Of a DNA stretch of 64,000 nt, positions 10,564 through 38,928 are shown piece by piece (position 1 is the stretch's first letter; the number at the start of each line of letters is the position of its first letter). This stretch comes from Geobacillus subterraneus (GTDB lineage: Bacteria > Bacillota > Bacilli > Bacillales > Anoxybacillaceae): the NCBI RefSeq assembly GCF_001618685.1, contig NZ_CP014342.1, positions 2,108,001 through 2,172,000 on the forward strand, written 5' to 3'. Made by a program: the position numbers and the translations under genes. The notes under the pieces are model-generated. The model was given only the letters and a program-made list of their open reading frames with translations. It was not told where the DNA came from and ran no database searches.

Positions 10564-11646
10564 CTACACATTTCGTTTGAGCCGATAAACGTACGCCAAA
10601 ACTTCCGCCACCGCTTTAAAAAACGCCTCCGGAATCATATCGCCGACCTCCGCCTGCCGATAAAGCGCCTGAGCGAGCAGACGGTTCTCAACGGTGACGA
10701 CACCGTTGGCTTTGGCGATTTCCTTAATTCTTAAGGCGACATAGTCCGCCCCTTTCGCCACAACGAGCGGCGCTTCCATTTTTCCGTCTTCATACTTGAG
10801 CGCGACCGCATAATGGGTCGGGTTCGTAATGACAACATCTGCGTTCGGCACTTCTTGCATCATCCGTTTCATCGCCATTTCCCGCTGTTTCTGTTTGATG
10901 CGCGACTTGATGAGCGGGTCGCCTTCCGTCTTTTTGTACTCATCTTTAATGTCCTGCTTCGACATGCGAATGTTTTTCTCAAATTCAAACCGCTGGTACA
11001 AATAATCAAACAACGCTAAAAATAAGAGCGCCGCCGCGGCATACAGCCCCATTTTCACCGTCAAACCGCCAATGACCGCGAGCATGGCACCCGGCGGTTT
11101 GGAGGCAAGCGCCATGAGTTCGTTTCGTCCGGAAAGCAGCAGCGCAAAGACAATTGCGCCGATGATGCCGGCTTTGAGCACTGATTTCAACAATTCGACA
11201 ATGGCGCGCAGCGAAAAAAGCCGCTTCATTCCTTGCACCGGATTGAGCCGGTTCCAGTCCATTTTCAGCGGTTCAACAGTAAAAAGAGCGCCGATTTGCA
11301 AAAAGTTGGCCAGCCCGGCCGCCAGCACGGCAGCGGCAAAAAACGGAGCCAAAAGGAGCGCCGCATGGCGGAGCCAGTCAAGAAACAGCAGGTGAAGCGA
11401 ATCGATCGTCAACGGAACGGACGCATAATCGGACAGCGCGCGGGCGAACAGGCGCAGCAAGCCATCGCGTTCGTACTCCCCCGCCAAAGACAAGGTGAGA
11501 AACGTTGCAAGCAAGACGGCGGCGGCAACTGCGTCACCGCTTTTCGCCACCTGCCCTTTTTCCCGTACTTCTTGCCGTTTGCGCGGCGTCGCCTTTTCCG
11601 TTTTTTCTCCCGCAAAAAATTGCAAATCAAGCCGCCAGCGGCCCAT
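10564..11646 (-). CDS. flhB: Flagellar export switch protein FlhB
   Basis: 360 aa, starting at MGRWRLDLQFF with GGGAGG upstream. LQFFAGEKTEKATPRKR is the classic FlhB N-terminus. Four membrane helices lie between about 38 and 215. The cytoplasmic domain contains the autocleavage motif NPTH at 275-278. Cleavage there and interaction with FliK switch export from rod/hook to filament substrates. Its C-terminal piece is closely mirrored by the separate small gene at 36231-36518. Confidence 0.98.
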   Translation of the reverse strand: MGRWRLDLQFFAGEKTEKATPRKRQEVREKGQVAKSGDAVAAAVLLATFLTLSLAGEYERDGLLRLFARALSDYASVPLTIDSLHLLFLDWLRHAALLLAPFFAAAVLAAGLANFLQIGALFTVEPLKMDWNRLNPVQGMKRLFSLRAIVELLKSVLKAGIIGAIVFALLLSGRNELMALASKPPGAMLAVIGGLTVKMGLYAAAALLFLALFDYLYQRFEFEKNIRMSKQDIKDEYKKTEGDPLIKSRIKQKQREMAMKRMMQEVPNADVVITNPTHYAVALKYEDGKMEAPLVVAKGADYVALRIKEIAKANGVVTVENRLLAQALYRQAEVGDMIPEAFFKAVAEVLAYVYRLKRNV

Positions 11647-11647
11647 C

Positions 11648-12421
11648 TTACGCGCCTCCCAACAACCGCATAAACTCGCGCAGCGACGCAAACATGAGCT
11701 GAAACAGTTCACGGGCGGAAAGCAAAATTCCGCCGATCGCTGCAAACAGGAGCAAAAACGCCGCCGCCGTCTTCAGGGAAAAACCGACGGCAAAAATGTT
11801 CATTTGCGGCACGGCGCGGGCGATGATGCCAAGCGCCACATCGACTAAAAAGAGCGCTCCGACAAGCGGGGCGGCCATTTGCACGGCGATGGCAAACATC
11901 GCAGCGAACGCGCGAACCGCATACTCGACCGCCCGCCCGTCGGCAATATGCGGCCATCCGTCGAGCGGCAGCCAGCGATAGCTGTAAAACATGCCATCCA
12001 GCAACAGATGGTGACCGTCAAGCGCCAGCAACAACAAAAGCGCCAGCGAGTGAAGGTATTGGCCTAAGAGCGGGCTTTGCGCCCCGGTTTGCGGATCAAT
12101 GACATTGGCGATGGCAAACCCGATTTGAAAGTCAATCAACCCGCCGGCCATTTGCACCGCCGCCATAACGGTCGCCGCGATCAGTCCAAGCGCCAGTCCG
12201 ACGAGCACCTCTTTAAAGATCAGCAGCATATACACATCATTTAATGGCAGCGTCGGTTTGGGCACCGCCAAAAACAACAGCCAGCTGAAAAAAAACGCCA
12301 ACCCGATTTTATACGAAGCCGGCACCGTCCGATACGAAAAGAGCGGCATCGCAGCAAAAAACGAAGCGGTGCGGGCGAAAATAAGCAAAAACGCCGGAAA
12401 GTGAGTCCATAATTGTTCCAT
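11648..12421 (-). CDS. fliR: Flagellar export channel protein FliR
   Basis: 257 aa, very hydrophobic, about six predicted membrane segments, with family features ARTASFFAAMPLFSYR near the start and the QMAGGLIDFQIGFAIANVIDP block. FliR joins FliP and FliQ in the helical export channel. It lies between fliQ and flhB in the conserved fliP-fliQ-fliR-flhB-flhA order. Confidence 0.97.
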   Translation of the reverse strand: MEQLWTHFPAFLLIFARTASFFAAMPLFSYRTVPASYKIGLAFFFSWLLFLAVPKPTLPLNDVYMLLIFKEVLVGLALGLIAATVMAAVQMAGGLIDFQIGFAIANVIDPQTGAQSPLLGQYLHSLALLLLLALDGHHLLLDGMFYSYRWLPLDGWPHIADGRAVEYAVRAFAAMFAIAVQMAAPLVGALFLVDVALGIIARAVPQMNIFAVGFSLKTAAAFLLLFAAIGGILLSARELFQLMFASLREFMRLLGGA

Positions 12422-18783: not shown

Positions 18784-19935
18784 CTATGCATCCGCCTCAA
18801 TCCCGTCTAACGCAAACGGGGAAGAAGGCGATGATTCCTGCTTTTGTTCCTGCTGTGACTCGCCATGTTGACGGCCGCCTTGGCGCTTCTCGGAATGCGG
18901 CGGCATGGCAGGACCTTCAAAATCGGTCCAAACCGTCCATTTTTCGACGGTAATGTGGCTCGCATCGAGCAACTGGGCGAGCTGCGGCAGATGGGCATGA
19001 AGCAACTCTTTTACGGCGTCATTTGACACAAGCAGTTTGGCGGCGAGCTTCCCGCCTTCGTGCACCATTTTCACGGTAACCGTCCCGAGATGTTCCGGGT
19101 GGAGGCGGATGACGAGCTGCGTTGCACCATTTGGCAGCTTCATCCACCGCCCCAACCGCAAGGCGCGGGCGACTTGGTTAATCAGAGAACTGCCGTTATC
19201 GGCTTCTGTTCTGCTTGTCTGACTGTCCAAACTAGCGTCAACAGACAACAGTGAGGCCATATTTGCTGAAAAAGCCGTATGGCCATCTGGCTGGAAACGA
19301 TTCTCTCTATGCCACCCATGACGAACCTCATATTCCGCCGGCTGAACCCGCAACGAAAAGAAAGATTCGACCGATGCGTTTTTGCCGTTTAACTTTCTCC
19401 CCTCTTCACGGATATTCCCATCTGGCCACCTGTTTCCCAGTCCGGCACCAGTCAATTCGCTCTGACTATGAGCGGCTTGGAACAAACGTTGAGTCGTAGA
19501 AACTTGTGTGTTTTCAACTCTCTCACCAGCCAATTGGGTTTCTCTATGATCAAACGGCAGCAGCGGGTTTCTTATGTTCCTGCCGTTTGCGTCCGCGGCG
19601 ACGAAAGAAGCATGATTTCCGCTTTCCCCATCGACTGCTGCCGGCAGCTGATCATGGCTCCCTTGCGCCACGCTTTGAGCGGAAAAGCTTCCTTCCGCCT
19701 GCATGGCTATAACAGGTAGCCAAGCTAGTTCCGCCTGCTCATCCGTTTTTCTCGTTTTATTTTCTGACAAAGATGGCGGTTGAGCCGCCTCTGTTTCAAC
19801 TGAATCTGTCTCGGTCTGCCTGCGCGCAAGCAGCGCCGCGAACGCGCCGGTTGTCCCTGTTTCCTTTTTTGACATCGCCGGTGTCATTTCAACGCCTGTA
19901 GAGCGCAACAAGCTTGCTGCGATCACCGCTTTCAT
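18784..19935 (-). CDS. fliK: Hook-length control protein FliK
   Basis: 383 aa, starting [12 protein letters not shown] with AGGAGG upstream. The long N-terminal and central region is low in conservation and polar, as expected for a molecular ruler. The C-terminal Flg_hook domain (about 252-336) contains [18 protein letters not shown] and is followed by a Gln/Ser-rich tail. It measures the hook and triggers the FlhB specificity switch. The start overlaps the stop of the preceding gene (ATGA). Confidence 0.92.
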
Positions 19936-20543
19936 TCGGCCGCCTCCTCTCCCATCGCCCATTTGCGCAACGACGAAAGCAAGTTCGCCGCTTGTTCAAT
20001 CGGCATTTGTTCCAAAATGGCTGCTGCCTTGTCTCCATCGATACGGCTCAACACAGCGAGCGCTTCGTCATCCGACAGCTCGGCTAAAATGGCAGCCGCC
20101 TGTTTTTCTGACATCGCCCCGTACATCGCGGCCACATCGTCCGTCGTCACGGCGGGCTTGGCAGCGTGATCGGCTTGTTCGGTCGAGTCCTCATCTGGCG
20201 CCGATAAGCGGGCGATTTCATGCTCTTTTACAGTTAATTCGTTCTGGAGCTGCTGAATTTGTTTTTTCTGGTTCTCAATCATCTCTTTTTGCTGTTTGAT
20301 CGTCTGTTGCTGCGCCGCGATCGTTTTTGCCAGCGCTTTCTCCTTCTTTTTCCAGTCGATCCATTCGGACACAAACGGCACGTTCGCTGTCCATTGTTTT
20401 GTTTTTGCCGCCACATCGATGTCGGCTACTTTGACGATTAACAAGAGGAAGAAGGCGGCAAATAAACTTGGGATCACAATGACGAACAAGATCCATTGCC
20501 ACCAGCTTGCCCTTTCTTCCTGTTGGACTTTGCTGCTTGCCAT
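19932..20543 (-). CDS. ylxF: YlxF-like membrane/coiled-coil protein with MgtE_N-type domain
   Basis: 203 aa. One membrane helix lies at about 17-40, a long coiled coil (65-112, rich in Gln/Lys/Glu) follows, and a C-terminal MgtE intracellular-type helical domain (about 130-195, MSEKQAAAILAELSDDEALAVLS) completes it. The same order fliJ-ylxF-fliK occurs in B. subtilis. The precise role is unknown; related proteins (MotE type) help stator function in other bacteria, which is suggestive only. Confidence 0.85.
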   Translation of the reverse strand: MASSKVQQEERASWWQWILFVIVIPSLFAAFFLLLIVKVADIDVAAKTKQWTANVPFVSEWIDWKKKEKALAKTIAAQQQTIKQQKEMIENQKKQIQQLQNELTVKEHEIARLSAPDEDSTEQADHAAKPAVTTDDVAAMYGAMSEKQAAAILAELSDDEALAVLSRIDGDKAAAILEQMPIEQAANLLSSLRKWAMGEEAAE

Positions 20544-26565: not shown

Positions 26566-26955
26566 CTATTTCCCTCCTTTAATGACCGTTTTTAACGTAT
26601 TGAATTTGCCGTTTATCCGCTCAATGAGCGCATTGTAATAAATTTGGTTTTCTGCTAATTTTGACATTTCTTGATCAATATCGACACTGTTGCCATTATG
26701 ATTGTAACTGATATTTGCGTTCGTCGTCACGATAATTTTCCCATTTTGCTCGTTTCGAAACGGAAAATGACTCGGATCCGTCCGTTTCGCCTCGAGCTGG
26801 AGCGCCCGGTCGAGCTCGGCTTGAAAGCGCACGTCTTTCGCCTTATAGCCCGGTGTATCGGCGTTGGCGATGTTGTCGGCAATCGCCTGCTGGCGGAGCG
26901 AGGCATAACGGAGTCCTTGTTCAAGCCAGTGGATCGTCGATGAAAACAGCGACAA
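26566..26955 (-). CDS. flgB: Flagellar rod protein FlgB
   Basis: 129 aa from a TTG start (read MSLFSSTIHWLEQG), chosen because GAGGGGA lies five bases upstream and the residues match the family N-terminus from here. An upstream in-frame ATG (26988) would place the ribosome site inside the gene. NIANADTPGYKAKDVRF is the rod motif. It is the first gene of the fla/che superoperon. Confidence 0.95.
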   Translation of the reverse strand: MSLFSSTIHWLEQGLRYASLRQQAIADNIANADTPGYKAKDVRFQAELDRALQLEAKRTDPSHFPFRNEQNGKIIVTTNANISYNHNGNSVDIDQEMSKLAENQIYYNALIERINGKFNTLKTVIKGGK

Positions 26956-27026
26956 TGGAATCCCCTCTTTTAGCCTATTTTTCGACAATTTCTGCTAGCT
27001 TTCATTTTACGGGAAGGAAAACCTAA

Positions 27027-34954: not shown

Positions 34955-36115
<1,161 letters not shown>

Positions 36116-36147
36116 GCGCCAACCTCCTATGTATAAAATCAAAAAAG

Positions 36148-36230: not shown

Positions 36231-36518
36231 TTATCCCTCCCCCAACGTCTCTTCTTTCACCGCCCGGTCGAGCTGATAAAGAAAGGCAAACAACTCCGCT
36301 ACGAGGGCATACAGCCCTTCCGGAATCGCTTCGTTGATCTCCACTTCGCTTAACAGCTCAACAAGCGACGGGTCTTTTCGCACCGGCACGCCGTACTGCT
36401 CAGCCGCGGCGATGATCGCCTCGGCGATCTCCCCGCTTCCTTTTGCCTTGACGACCGGCGCCTCATCGACCGCCGCATCGTACGACAAAGCGACCGCTTT
36501 TTTCCGCTCTTCATTCAT
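36231..36518 (-). CDS. ylqH: YlqH: free-standing FlhB cytoplasmic-domain-like protein
   Basis: 95 aa from MNEERKKAVALSYD; AGGTGG lies ten bases upstream and the start overlaps the ylqG stop (ATG within the last codons). The whole protein aligns with the part of FlhB that follows its NPTH cleavage site: AVALSYD against AVALKYEDG, EAPVVKAKGSGEIA against EAPLVVAKGADYVA, and NEAIPEGLYALVAELFAFLY against GDMIPEAFFKAVAEVLAYVY. It has no membrane segment and no NPTH. The function is not established. Confidence 0.85.
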   Translation of the reverse strand: MNEERKKAVALSYDAAVDEAPVVKAKGSGEIAEAIIAAAEQYGVPVRKDPSLVELLSEVEINEAIPEGLYALVAELFAFLYQLDRAVKEETLGEG

Positions 36519-38068
36519 ATGCGCCAATCCACCTCACTATATGTGCCGGAAAACGGGAAACGAGACGGGGGCGGCGGTGCGGCATCCGTTGCTTTCACAT
36601 CGACGCCCGAGAGCGTATAGCCGTGCGCCTGCAATCGCTCTTTCACAAGCGGGGCGAAACGGGCGGTGAGCGCCGGCAGCCGCGGGTCGCTGTGAAATAT
36701 CGAAATGTGGACAATCCGCCGCTGGATGCGCACATCGACAACGATCTCCTGCAGCGCCTCGAGCGTTAAGCAACAAACCATGCGGCTATAATCGTCATCA
36801 AGCCGTCCGTTAGGTGTCCGCTTCCCTTGCCAGCAGACGGCAAAATCGCTCAAACGCGCGCCAAGCGGCAGTGGAAACGCAAGCCATACATGTTCGAGCA
36901 GCCCATCGCCGCCAGCGGTAATGGCCATTCCGTCCATCTGGGTGAGGAGCGCTTCGGCTGCCTGTTTCGCCTCCCTGTCCCCCGGCGCGCGGAGAAAGTG
37001 AAGAAGCAGCCTTTTCAACGATGGGGACCCTTCCGGCAAAGCCCCCGCTTTCACGGCACGAGCGAGCGCCGCCTCGTCTTCAAGGCCGAGGCGTCCGGCG
37101 ATCCGGCGCAGCCAGTGAAACAACGACAACGCCGGGTCGCTCGCAGCTCTGGCGGCTGCCCACAACGCCGCTTCCGCTTCAGTGAGCGCCCCGCTTGTGC
37201 AGGCGGCATCCACAGCGGCAACCCGTGCCAAAAACGTTTCCTCATCAGCTAAGCCAAGCTGTCTGTACACCTCGGCAAACTGCCGCTGCCGCACCGCCTC
37301 TTGAAGCGCTGAATGCCGATCCTCCGGCAGCGGGGCCAATCCGAGGCGGGCGAGAAGCGCACGCGCCGGCCCCGCTTCTTCTCCCTCGGTCGAAAGAAGC
37401 AAGTGCACAACCGTCTCATAGACGAACAACGGCGGGGAAAGAAGCCGCTCGATCGCCCGGCCGAGCTCGGGCGCCGCCGGATGGGCGGAAAGGGCGGCAA
37501 TGGCCGCTTTCAGTTTCCCCAACCCCTCAGCGAGCGGCACCCCGGTTTTTGCCGCCCACAATGCCCGAAACACGGCGGCAGACGGCGGCAGGCGGCGGCG
37601 GAACAAGTATGCGAGCACCTCTTCGGCATCGGCCGGCCGCTCTGTTTCCCTCACCGCCTCGGTCAGTTCCGCAATCTCCCCCTTCGTCACGGCCGCGCCT
37701 GCTTTGAACGCCTGGCGGAGCACCGGCAAGGCGGCGTCCGGCAGCTTCCACGTCTGCTGCCATCGGCGCGCGGTGTCCTCGTCAGACAAAGCGGACGAAC
37801 GCCCGGGGAAAGAGGCGGCTTTCCAATAAATCGTTCCCTCCTGTTGTTTGATTTCAAACAAGTACGTGCGCCCGAGGAGAAGCGGTGCCTCGAGGCGGGC
37901 GCGTACGAGCTGGCTGCCAACGCGGACGAACGCCACCTGTTCTCCGTTTTTCGTTTCCTCCACCTGCTCGACCCGGCCGACGACCGCCTGTCCGGGCTGA
38001 AACCGTTGGCTGAATGTTGCATCACGGACAGCGGTCACCGGAATGGTTCGTTCCATCCGCTCTACCAT
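36515..38068 (-). CDS. ylqG: YlqG-like protein with a FliK/Flg_hook-type C-terminal region
   Basis: 517 aa, uncharacterised. The N-terminus (about 15-75) looks like a small beta domain (GQAVVGRVEQVEE...LLGRTYLFEIKQQEG). The middle (90-390) is Ala/Leu-rich and helical. The last 120 residues contain alternating beta-strand/helix segments (LTLEALQEIVVDVRIQRR, then TARFAPLVKERLQAHGY) that resemble the FliK hook-length domain encoded at 18784-19935. It overlaps ylqH by four bases. Similarity to FliK is my reading of the pattern, not a search result. Confidence 0.75.
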   Translation of the reverse strand: MVERMERTIPVTAVRDATFSQRFQPGQAVVGRVEQVEETKNGEQVAFVRVGSQLVRARLEAPLLLGRTYLFEIKQQEGTIYWKAASFPGRSSALSDEDTARRWQQTWKLPDAALPVLRQAFKAGAAVTKGEIAELTEAVRETERPADAEEVLAYLFRRRLPPSAAVFRALWAAKTGVPLAEGLGKLKAAIAALSAHPAAPELGRAIERLLSPPLFVYETVVHLLLSTEGEEAGPARALLARLGLAPLPEDRHSALQEAVRQRQFAEVYRQLGLADEETFLARVAAVDAACTSGALTEAEAALWAAARAASDPALSLFHWLRRIAGRLGLEDEAALARAVKAGALPEGSPSLKRLLLHFLRAPGDREAKQAAEALLTQMDGMAITAGGDGLLEHVWLAFPLPLGARLSDFAVCWQGKRTPNGRLDDDYSRMVCCLTLEALQEIVVDVRIQRRIVHISIFHSDPRLPALTARFAPLVKERLQAHGYTLSGVDVKATDAAPPPPSRFPFSGTYSEVDWRI

Positions 38069-38130: not shown

Positions 38131-38928
38131 TCAAAACGCGCCTTGGCCGCTATGTCGAACATCGAGCGCTTCCCTTACTGGGGCGAATGAGCGGCGGTGC
38201 TCCTCTGTCACGCCATAGCGGCGAATCGCCGCAAGATGTTCCGGCGTCCCATAGCCCATATGGCGGGCAAAACCATATTGCGGATAGCGGCGATCGAGCT
38301 CATGCATCCATCGGTCGCGCGTCACTTTGGCGATGATGGACGCGGCAGCGATCGAGGCGCTATTGGCATCGCCTTTTACGAGGCGCTGCTGCGGCAGCGC
38401 ACACGGCACGGCCATCGCATCGACAAGCAAATGCTCCGGCGGCGGCGAGAGCGCAGCGACCGCTTTGGCCATCGCTTGTCTTGTCGCCTCGTAAATGTTC
38501 CACTCATCAATTTCAGCCGCGCTAACAATGCTGACGCCAATCGCAACGGCGCACGCCTCGATTTGCGCAAACAGCGCCTCGCGCTTGGCTGGCGTCAACC
38601 GCTTCGAGTCGTCAAGCCCCGGCAAATAAGCATCTTTCGGCAAAATGACGGCCGCGGCGACAATCGGGCCGGCCAGCGGTCCGCGTCCGGCTTCGTCAAT
38701 GCCGGCAATTCGTTCAATGCCGGCGGCATATAGTTCACGCTCATGGCGCATCAGCTCTTCCCAGCGCTGCCGCGCCGCTTTCTCCCGCTCCTTTTGCCTA
38801 ATAAAGCGGGCCAGAAGCGCCTGCACGCTTTTTCGTTCATCGCGCCGCAGCATCTCCCAGCGCGGGTCGCTTTCTCCCCCGAGTTCTGGAAGCAGCGCTT
38901 CAATTTCTTTCACCGTATACTGTTTCAT
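38131..38928 (-). CDS. rnhB: Ribonuclease HII
   Basis: 265 aa. An N-terminal extension of about 70 charged residues (substrate-binding TBP-like region) precedes the catalytic domain with [12 protein letters not shown] (Asp-Glu), [12 protein letters not shown] and LLVDAMAVP (Asp), plus [14 protein letters not shown]. It removes RNA from RNA-DNA hybrids, including single misincorporated ribonucleotides. First gene of the unit rnhB-ylqG-ylqH. Confidence 0.97.

Follow-up and report, generated by a model that had tools for sequence, protein, structure and literature searches.

The window, i.e. the whole stretch of 64,000 nucleotides of Geobacillus subterraneus DNA analysed here, carries two adjoining genes, ylqG and ylqH, whose products correspond to the two partners of the flagellar export switch. 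YlqH is the domain of FlhB that lies downstream of the autocleavage site, with neither membrane part nor NPTH, and YlqG ends in a FliK-type export-switch domain. The role of the pair is very probably a flagellar one, exerted on flagellar export, because the pair occurs almost only together with flhB and a second copy lies near a flagellin gene. As best explanation we propose a soluble complex of a FliK-like protein with an FlhX protein, which would belong to the flagellar export machinery and serve its specificity switch; we give this reading as a whole about even chances.

Table 1. Features of the ylqGH locus and the two genes used as comparison partners, in positions of the window.
Feature	Position	Strand	Description
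ylqG	36515..38068	(-)	ORF, 517 aa: OB-like N-domain, helical middle, FliK-type C-domain, free C-terminal tail
ylqH (FlhX family, by names and profiles)	36231..36518	(-)	95 aa from ATG; FlhB post-cleavage domain, without membrane part and NPTH
ATGA overlap of ylqG stop and ylqH start	36515..36518	(-)	4 bases
YlqG residues 24-88, five-stranded OB-like barrel	37805..37999	(-)	predicted; model strands between 28 and 84; VIA matches
YlqG residues 96-385, helical middle	36914..37783	(-)	predicted by the model; region enlarged in YlqG2
YlqG residues 425-495, Flg_hook (FliK export-switch) domain	36584..36796	(-)	PF02120, profile-profile comparison, 2rrl
YlqG C-terminal pentapeptide VDWRI, Asp at -4 (D514)	36518..36532	(-)	FliK-type switch tail by motif
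flhB, full length, comparison partner	10564..11745	(-)	PF01312 436 bits; NPTH at about 10813-10824
fliK, hook-length protein proper, comparison partner	18784..19962	(-)	PF02120 E 1.5e-18

The gene names are those of the earlier note, which had been made from the sequence alone, and both open reading frames lie where that note had placed them, including the four-base overlap, the minus strand reading ATGA from 36518 to 36515. An alternative TTG start of ylqH at 36527 would give a protein of 98 aa. The pair is flanked by the genes for RNase HII (rnhB, 38131-38928) and for a succinyl-CoA ligase of beta type (sucC, 34955-36142). The distance to the fla/che operon, counted from the first rod gene (26566-26988, PF00460; flgB by position) to 36231, is about 9 kb, slightly less than the 10 kb or so claimed before.

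YlqH reaches 64.1 bits against PF01312 (cut-off 24.4, E 1.8e-17) and the match covers positions 262-334 only of the 335 in the profile. With the FlhB of the window it shares 31 identities in 81 positions (38%, E 4e-12), the alignment running from 'AVAL' just after NPTHY, and the RKKAVAL of YlqH stands where FlhB has NPTHYAVAL. The earlier description of an end-to-end alignment with the post-NPTH part of FlhB is correct as to the starting point; as to extent it holds nearly, since residues 8-87 of the 95 are aligned. The absence of a transmembrane part and of NPTH, also claimed before, agrees with our reading of the sequence by eye and with the restricted profile match. In a profile search of the PDB the top match was 3b1s_B (E 8.8e-19), which together with the PF01312 score bears out the proposed FlhB_C assignment. 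Furthermore, Foldseek aligned the AlphaFold2 model of YlqH (pLDDT 75.4) with FlhB 3b1s_B (E 5.7e-6, rmsd 1.4), followed by the C-domains of EscU, SpaS, YscU and PscU. Across an alignment of 69 rows, from which L163, L190, L197, L215 and L231 were excluded in addition to seven excluded loci, the mean column identity of YlqH is 52%. The FlhB frame of the window, as listed, begins at a TTG with 33 extra residues and its true start is likely the ATG of MGRWRLDLQFFAGEKTEKATPRK.

Against TIGR00789 (flhB_rel) YlqH scores 99.2 bits, under the curated cut-off of 117.35. That cut-off is stricter than the family, because it is passed in only two of the 76 genomes of the order Bacillales (among the matches listed) and in none of the 76 genomes of the phylum sample. 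Judged by names and profiles, HP1575, FlhX, TIGR00789 and YlqH are one family, which makes YlqH a member of the already named FlhX family; the earlier note was silent on this membership, as it was on the second pair in the same genome. A tree of 79 short sequences sets FlhB apart as a group (99/90) and joins the YlqH copies of second pairs (YlqH2) with the copy of G037 (100/99); few forks are resolved and the YlqH of the first kind do not form one group.

That YlqG ends in the C-terminal domain of FliK, as had been suggested, is weakly indicated by the window copy alone and decisively by the family evidence. With HMMER the window YlqG matches PF02120 (Flg_hook) at 15.7 bits (E 0.013), under the cut-off of 29.8. 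The reading frame adjoining ylqH exceeds this cut-off in 3 of 76 Bacillales genomes (G310, G311 and G302, best score 32.3 bits), and elsewhere in the phylum it scores up to 40.4 bits (47 genomes). When the profile of the YlqG C-part, built from 57 loci, was aligned with that of the FliK C-part using hhalign, a probability of 98 was obtained (E 2e-13, 73 columns); the controls stayed at 1.7 (reversed FliK alignment), 0.1-0.2 (five column shuffles) and 0.2 (YlqH). Both domain assignments and the membrane-free pair envisaged earlier are supported.

The AlphaFold2 model of YlqG (pLDDT 83.3) is of low confidence at residues 1-19 and 509-517 and folded over most of the rest, with strands between 28 and 84, helices over 96-385 and strands over 391-493 together with a helix at 464-481. 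For the N-part Foldseek finds OB folds, and VIA-align the OB-type chains LEF-3 and RecO (Z 6.6 and 5.6). The C-part is matched by Foldseek to the FliK C-domain 2rrl (probability 1.00, rmsd 1.8 over 66 columns, E 0.61) and to the PscP SS domain 5cuk (probability 1.00, rmsd 2.8), the E-values of all YlqG Foldseek matches, OB, 5cuk and 2rrl alike, being above 0.001. VIA-align places 2rrl on residues 411-496 with a middling Z of 5.7, and no PscP chain is among the best 50 chains that it listed for YlqG. In the fold searches with whole YlqG by either program the top rows are other folds (RecO, a designed protein), and a PDB profile search with full YlqG returned no meaningful relative. The length of YlqG ranges from 388 to 694 aa in 73 loci. 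FliK proper exceeds the Flg_hook cut-off in 71 of the 76 genomes of the order and, among those bearing YlqH, fails to reach it in G348 and G359 only; a FliK frame of 799 aa, matched twice by Flg_hook (28.5 and 45 bits), is present at G304:C1:1752313-1753173.

The last five residues of YlqG, VDWRI in the window, are often VDIRI in its relatives, and only three columns, D514 among them, are invariant across 74 full-length YlqG. At position -4, 56 of 57 loci have Asp and one has Asn, in a set from which L016, L019, L029 and L035 were first set aside and L022 was dropped as a copy of L003. With these four loci added the count of Asp or Asn becomes 60 of 61: L019, L029 and L035 end in GVNYQV, YVNLQI and GVNFKV, with Asn for Asp, and L016, where the upstream YlqG ends without tail in ERRFM, is a real miss. 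No tail Asp or Asn is found in L199 (VLHIVI) and L218 (GLSVSA), which are outside the YlqG alignments, as these left out seven of the 80 named loci (L167, L178, L180, L184, L199, L210 and L218). A strict motif, defined as hydrophobic, Asp/Asn, hydrophobic, any and hydrophobic residue at the very end, occurs in 72 of 73 YlqG from named genomes versus 1 of 446 background frames drawn from those loci, in two other YlqG sets (31/31 and 21/24) and in all 19 YlqG2.

This is the type of tail known from FliK. The C-terminus of E. coli FliK is GVDIFA; in the available text on Caulobacter, FliK ends in LDIRI and switching depends on the five C-terminal residues of FliK (PMC8545394), and the accessible part of a Salmonella study likewise makes switching a matter of the last five residues (PMC10965912). 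The portion at hand of a further Salmonella article reports that the cleaved FlhB domain is kept in early assembly and lost in a FliK-dependent manner at hook completion, and its authors propose that the last five FliK residues act on that domain (PMC13344023). The FliK of the window has the tail ...GIEADA, without the switch pentapeptide, and the strict motif is present in 34 of 44 FliK of Bacillota outside Bacillales as compared to 7 of 32 in Bacillales. By motif, YlqG carries a canonical switch-type tail and the FliK of Bacillales mostly a degenerate one. A strict complementarity, in which YlqGH would occur where the FliK tail is lost, was considered and rejected: the motif is found in 5 of 27 Bacillales FliK with YlqH versus 2 of 5 without, and in the rest of the phylum in 21 of 29 versus 13 of 15, which gives the idea no support. 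In this comparison L127 was left out, its FliK running off the contig. With a looser motif the counts are 27 of 56 FliK with YlqH and 16 of 20 without, orders mixed.

The two genes are tightly paired. Among the named loci, 78 have an upstream partner that could be read, and in 76 of them the ylqG stop overlaps the ylqH start by ATGA, the misses being L184 and L199, with L167 and L178 uncounted. At three loci outside the order (L019, L029, L035) ylqG stands downstream of ylqH, still adjoining, and L035 has a flagellin-like frame directly upstream. Beyond Bacillota, a FliK-like partner precedes YlqH in contigs titled Desulfotignum (L199), Nitrospinaceae (L210), Hydrogenedentota (L218) and Campylobacteraceae (L178), with the upstream proteins scoring 52, 53 and 34 bits with the YlqG-C profile in L199, L210 and L218 respectively. 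At the second Campylobacterota locus, L184, the partner does not match this profile (-1 bits); therefore the Campylobacterota case rests on L178 (E 9e-6). A natural fusion of YlqG and YlqH was looked for in G008 and G047 and not found, the frames being FlhB (L098) and YlqH with extra ends (L096, L097).

Over 63 genomes, the distances of YlqH correlate with those of the YlqG C-part at a Spearman coefficient of 0.45, with RnhB at 0.14 and with SucC at 0.20. Controlling for RnhB and SucC leaves YlqH with partial correlations of 0.41 (C-part), 0.34 (rest of YlqG) and 0.35 (whole YlqG), so that the signal is not confined to the C-part, and none of 200 permutations was as high for any of them. The partial correlations of the control pairs are about 0 for YlqG-RnhB and YlqH-RnhB, 0.04 for YlqH-SucC and 0.27 for YlqG-SucC; uncorrected, whole YlqG gives 0.40 with SucC and 0.39 with YlqH. 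This apparent coevolution supports a contact between YlqG and YlqH, short of proof.

With FlhB as genomic stand-in for flagella, YlqH is present in 115 of 137 FlhB-bearing genomes versus 1 of 15 without FlhB, the Bacillales part being counted among the matches listed (Fisher p 2e-9, relatedness uncorrected). In the TIGR00789 search of 76 Bacillota genomes, where YlqH and FlhB were assigned from frame lengths, 49 have a free YlqH together with FlhB, 16 have FlhB only and 11 neither. Among the matches listed for the 76 Bacillales genomes, both occur in 66, FlhB alone in 5 and neither in 3, G348 has YlqH only, and G367, in which YlqH is uncertain, was counted as without it. YlqH hence accompanies FlhB in 49 of 65 FlhB genomes of the phylum sample and, among the matches listed, in 66 of 72 of the order sample, and the 22 of 137 FlhB genomes without it are 16 Bacillota, 5 Bacillales and the uncertain G367. 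The genome of the window (G000) is present in both samples. The single match of G360 was counted as FlhB because this genome has FlhA, and G023, with a weak PF01312 match (5.5e-4), no TIGR00789 match and no FlhA, was counted as without FlhB; in G022 FlhB is partial and FlhA gave no match. The exception to the expected co-occurrence is G348, with a listed contamination of 7%, where ylqG and ylqH are intact (L099, G348:C28:38000-42679) and neither FlhA nor FlhB was matched. This genome counts against a strict dependence of the pair on flagella; it may have lost its flagella recently, or the pair may have a role beyond them.

The genome of the window has a second pair, ylqG2 (G000:C1:126469-129528, 1019 aa) and ylqH2 (129525-129821), and downstream of ylqH2 follow fliS, the gene of an 800-aa flagellin, a DUF327 gene, a further small gene, flgM, flgN and flgK. 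YlqG2 is a true relative of YlqG (E down to 6e-56) with an enlarged middle. The YlqG2 frames of L235, L237 and the other second-pair loci measure 740-1989 aa, the growth being in the middle, an unusual size for a FliK-like protein. Three or more TIGR00789 matches were found in 21 of 76 Bacillales genomes, among the matches listed. The cassette ylqG2-ylqH2-fliS-flagellin is present in 18 of the 19 second-pair genomes examined in the order (the own genome and 17 loci), G352, G330 and the fourth match of G339 being outside these 19, and it is also found outside the class in G037, which gives 19 loci in total. In G310, of the same genus, a divergent second pair lies in a comF-flgN-flgK-flgL-hag island (gene names by reading), with no fliS and flagellin directly behind. 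Its second YlqH (L245, G310:C168) is highly divergent (E 7e-11) and its YlqG2 ends in WEWTI, a state that looks like decay following loss of the second flagellin. The earlier note had left the choice between a modulation of the flagellar switch and an unrelated role. The flagellar option is now strongly favoured, because of the co-occurrence with FlhB, the second pair by fliS and flagellin and the FliK switch pentapeptide in YlqG; the modulation itself is a proposal.

In the proposed explanation YlqH would be a separately encoded version of the domain that in FlhB arises by autocleavage. YlqG would be a FliK paralogue that grips YlqH with its C-domain and terminal pentapeptide as FliK grips the cleaved FlhB domain, and it may keep the isolated YlqH folded in the cytoplasm. 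Because the pair consists of free versions of FliK and of the cleaved FlhB domain, we infer a soluble complex with the tail of YlqG on YlqH; a physical complex of the two is quite likely, and an action of both on the specificity switch somewhat likely. Around the hook-to-filament switch, once FliK has displaced the FlhB C-domain of the gate, YlqG could pass YlqH to the export gate, which would thereby be held or re-set for filament substrates. This hand-over and exchange at the gate is a conjecture that we consider doubtful. The position of ylqGH between rnhB and sucC, outside the fla/che operon, speaks against the explanation, as do the intact pair of G348, the 22 of 137 FlhB genomes without YlqH and a coevolution signal that extends beyond the C-part and is shared in part by SucC. 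According to the accessible text on Salmonella, moreover, late secretion is permanent in a strain that has neither Fluke nor the FlhB C-domain, so that the FlhB C-domain site needs no refilling there. A bolder extension, which we hold to be unlikely, would treat FlhB C-domains as exchangeable cartridges: YlqG would load YlqH after FliK removes the gate's own domain, and each flagellin would have its own cartridge, YlqGH for the main filament and YlqG2-YlqH2 with their own FliS for the second flagellin. The pentapeptide would in this order have largely shifted from FliK to YlqG, and the switch would be split over two proteins.

YlqH could instead be a pure spare part that replaces a lost or damaged FlhB C-domain, with YlqG as its chaperone and no normal regulatory role. 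The title of the paper on H. pylori HP1575, which also offers a precedent for replacement, and the match of YlqH to the post-cleavage chain in PDB entries of cleaved FlhB (3b1s_B, 3b0z_B) are in line with this. However, a rarely used backup would hardly keep the ATGA overlap in 76 of 78 loci, and neither an invariant tail residue nor a second copy beside fliS and flagellin is expected of one, and we consider this reading improbable. A decoy or brake, with YlqH binding FliK or YlqG tails in the cytoplasm so as to block premature switching, agrees with an FlhB C-domain fold lacking its anchor. It seems unlikely all the same, since the FliK tail of the order is mostly degenerate (strict motif 5/27 with YlqH), so that FliK may not be the ligand, and a brake would need no FliK-like partner of its own; moreover, in the available part of their article, mBio authors argue that Gram-positives do without a Fluke-like brake.

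The wide range of lengths, 388-694 aa for YlqG (73 loci) and 740-1989 aa for YlqG2, would suit a second ruler, YlqG being exported to measure a structure with YlqH as cytoplasmic anchor and YlqG2 serving the second filament. As stated in the accessible portion of the source, C. jejuni Cj0849c, which may be a counterpart of YlqG and is next to flhX (Cj0848c) by locus number, has 36 N-terminal residues that direct export in a Yersinia flagellar reporter. The predicted structure has folded helices in the middle of YlqG and a barrel in its N-domain, in place of an unfolded ruler, and we consider this reading quite unlikely. Finally, the pair might be non-flagellar and merely flagellar-looking, or a relic, as the housekeeping neighbours rnhB and sucC and the retention of the pair in G348 without FlhA and FlhB matches would suggest. 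The co-occurrence with FlhB (Fisher p 2e-9, relatedness uncorrected), the fliS-flagellin cassette in 19 loci and the conservation of YlqH (mean column identity 52%) argue against it and make it very improbable.

It has long been asked how the export gate passes from hook to filament substrates, and Salmonella work of 2026 points to FliK removing the FlhB C-domain. A pair that mimics both switch partners in free form is a natural and easily deleted test object, and the cassette raises the question whether different flagellins need their own gate parts.

Among the sources available, in part only and with few subscription papers covered, none was found on the function of YlqG-YlqH, the YlqG tail or the flagellin cassette, nor was a ylqGH deletion phenotype. 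The substitution ylqG P457Q is reported in the accessible text on evolved B. subtilis swarm clones, where it may be a hitchhiker. As far as the available parts of the articles go, a genome paper on Aliarcobacter lists ylqH as a type III gene (PMC9235176), a study of Actinobacteria employs FlhX as flagellar query (PMC10746217), and a Campylobacterota study names 'flhX-fliK' in passing (PMC9321776). Apart from these last words, no partner gene or tail was found in the accessible portions of the printed FlhX accounts. In the Nitratiruptor 'flhX-fliK' of that study, FlhX and FliK genes are paired outside the main flagellar cluster like ylqGH; the part of the text at hand does not mention tail motif, overlap or flagellin cassette.

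The FlhX family itself, with H. pylori HP1575, the 'spare part' in the title of Wand 2006, C. jejuni Cj0848c, named flhX in the available text, and TIGR00789, consists like YlqH of the FlhB post-cleavage domain alone, about 95 aa long. YlqH differs in scoring under the TIGR00789 cut-off, and the functional test of FlhX is represented here by the HP1575 title. Full-length FlhB has a C-domain that is 38% identical to YlqH and has the same fold, but also a membrane part, a linker and the autocleaving NPTH, all of which YlqH lacks. With FliK (Flg_hook, PF02120; the substrate-specificity domain, also found in PscP) YlqG has in common the fold and profile of the C-domain and the terminal pentapeptide, and it is set apart from FliK by a predicted OB-like N-domain and a folded helical middle.
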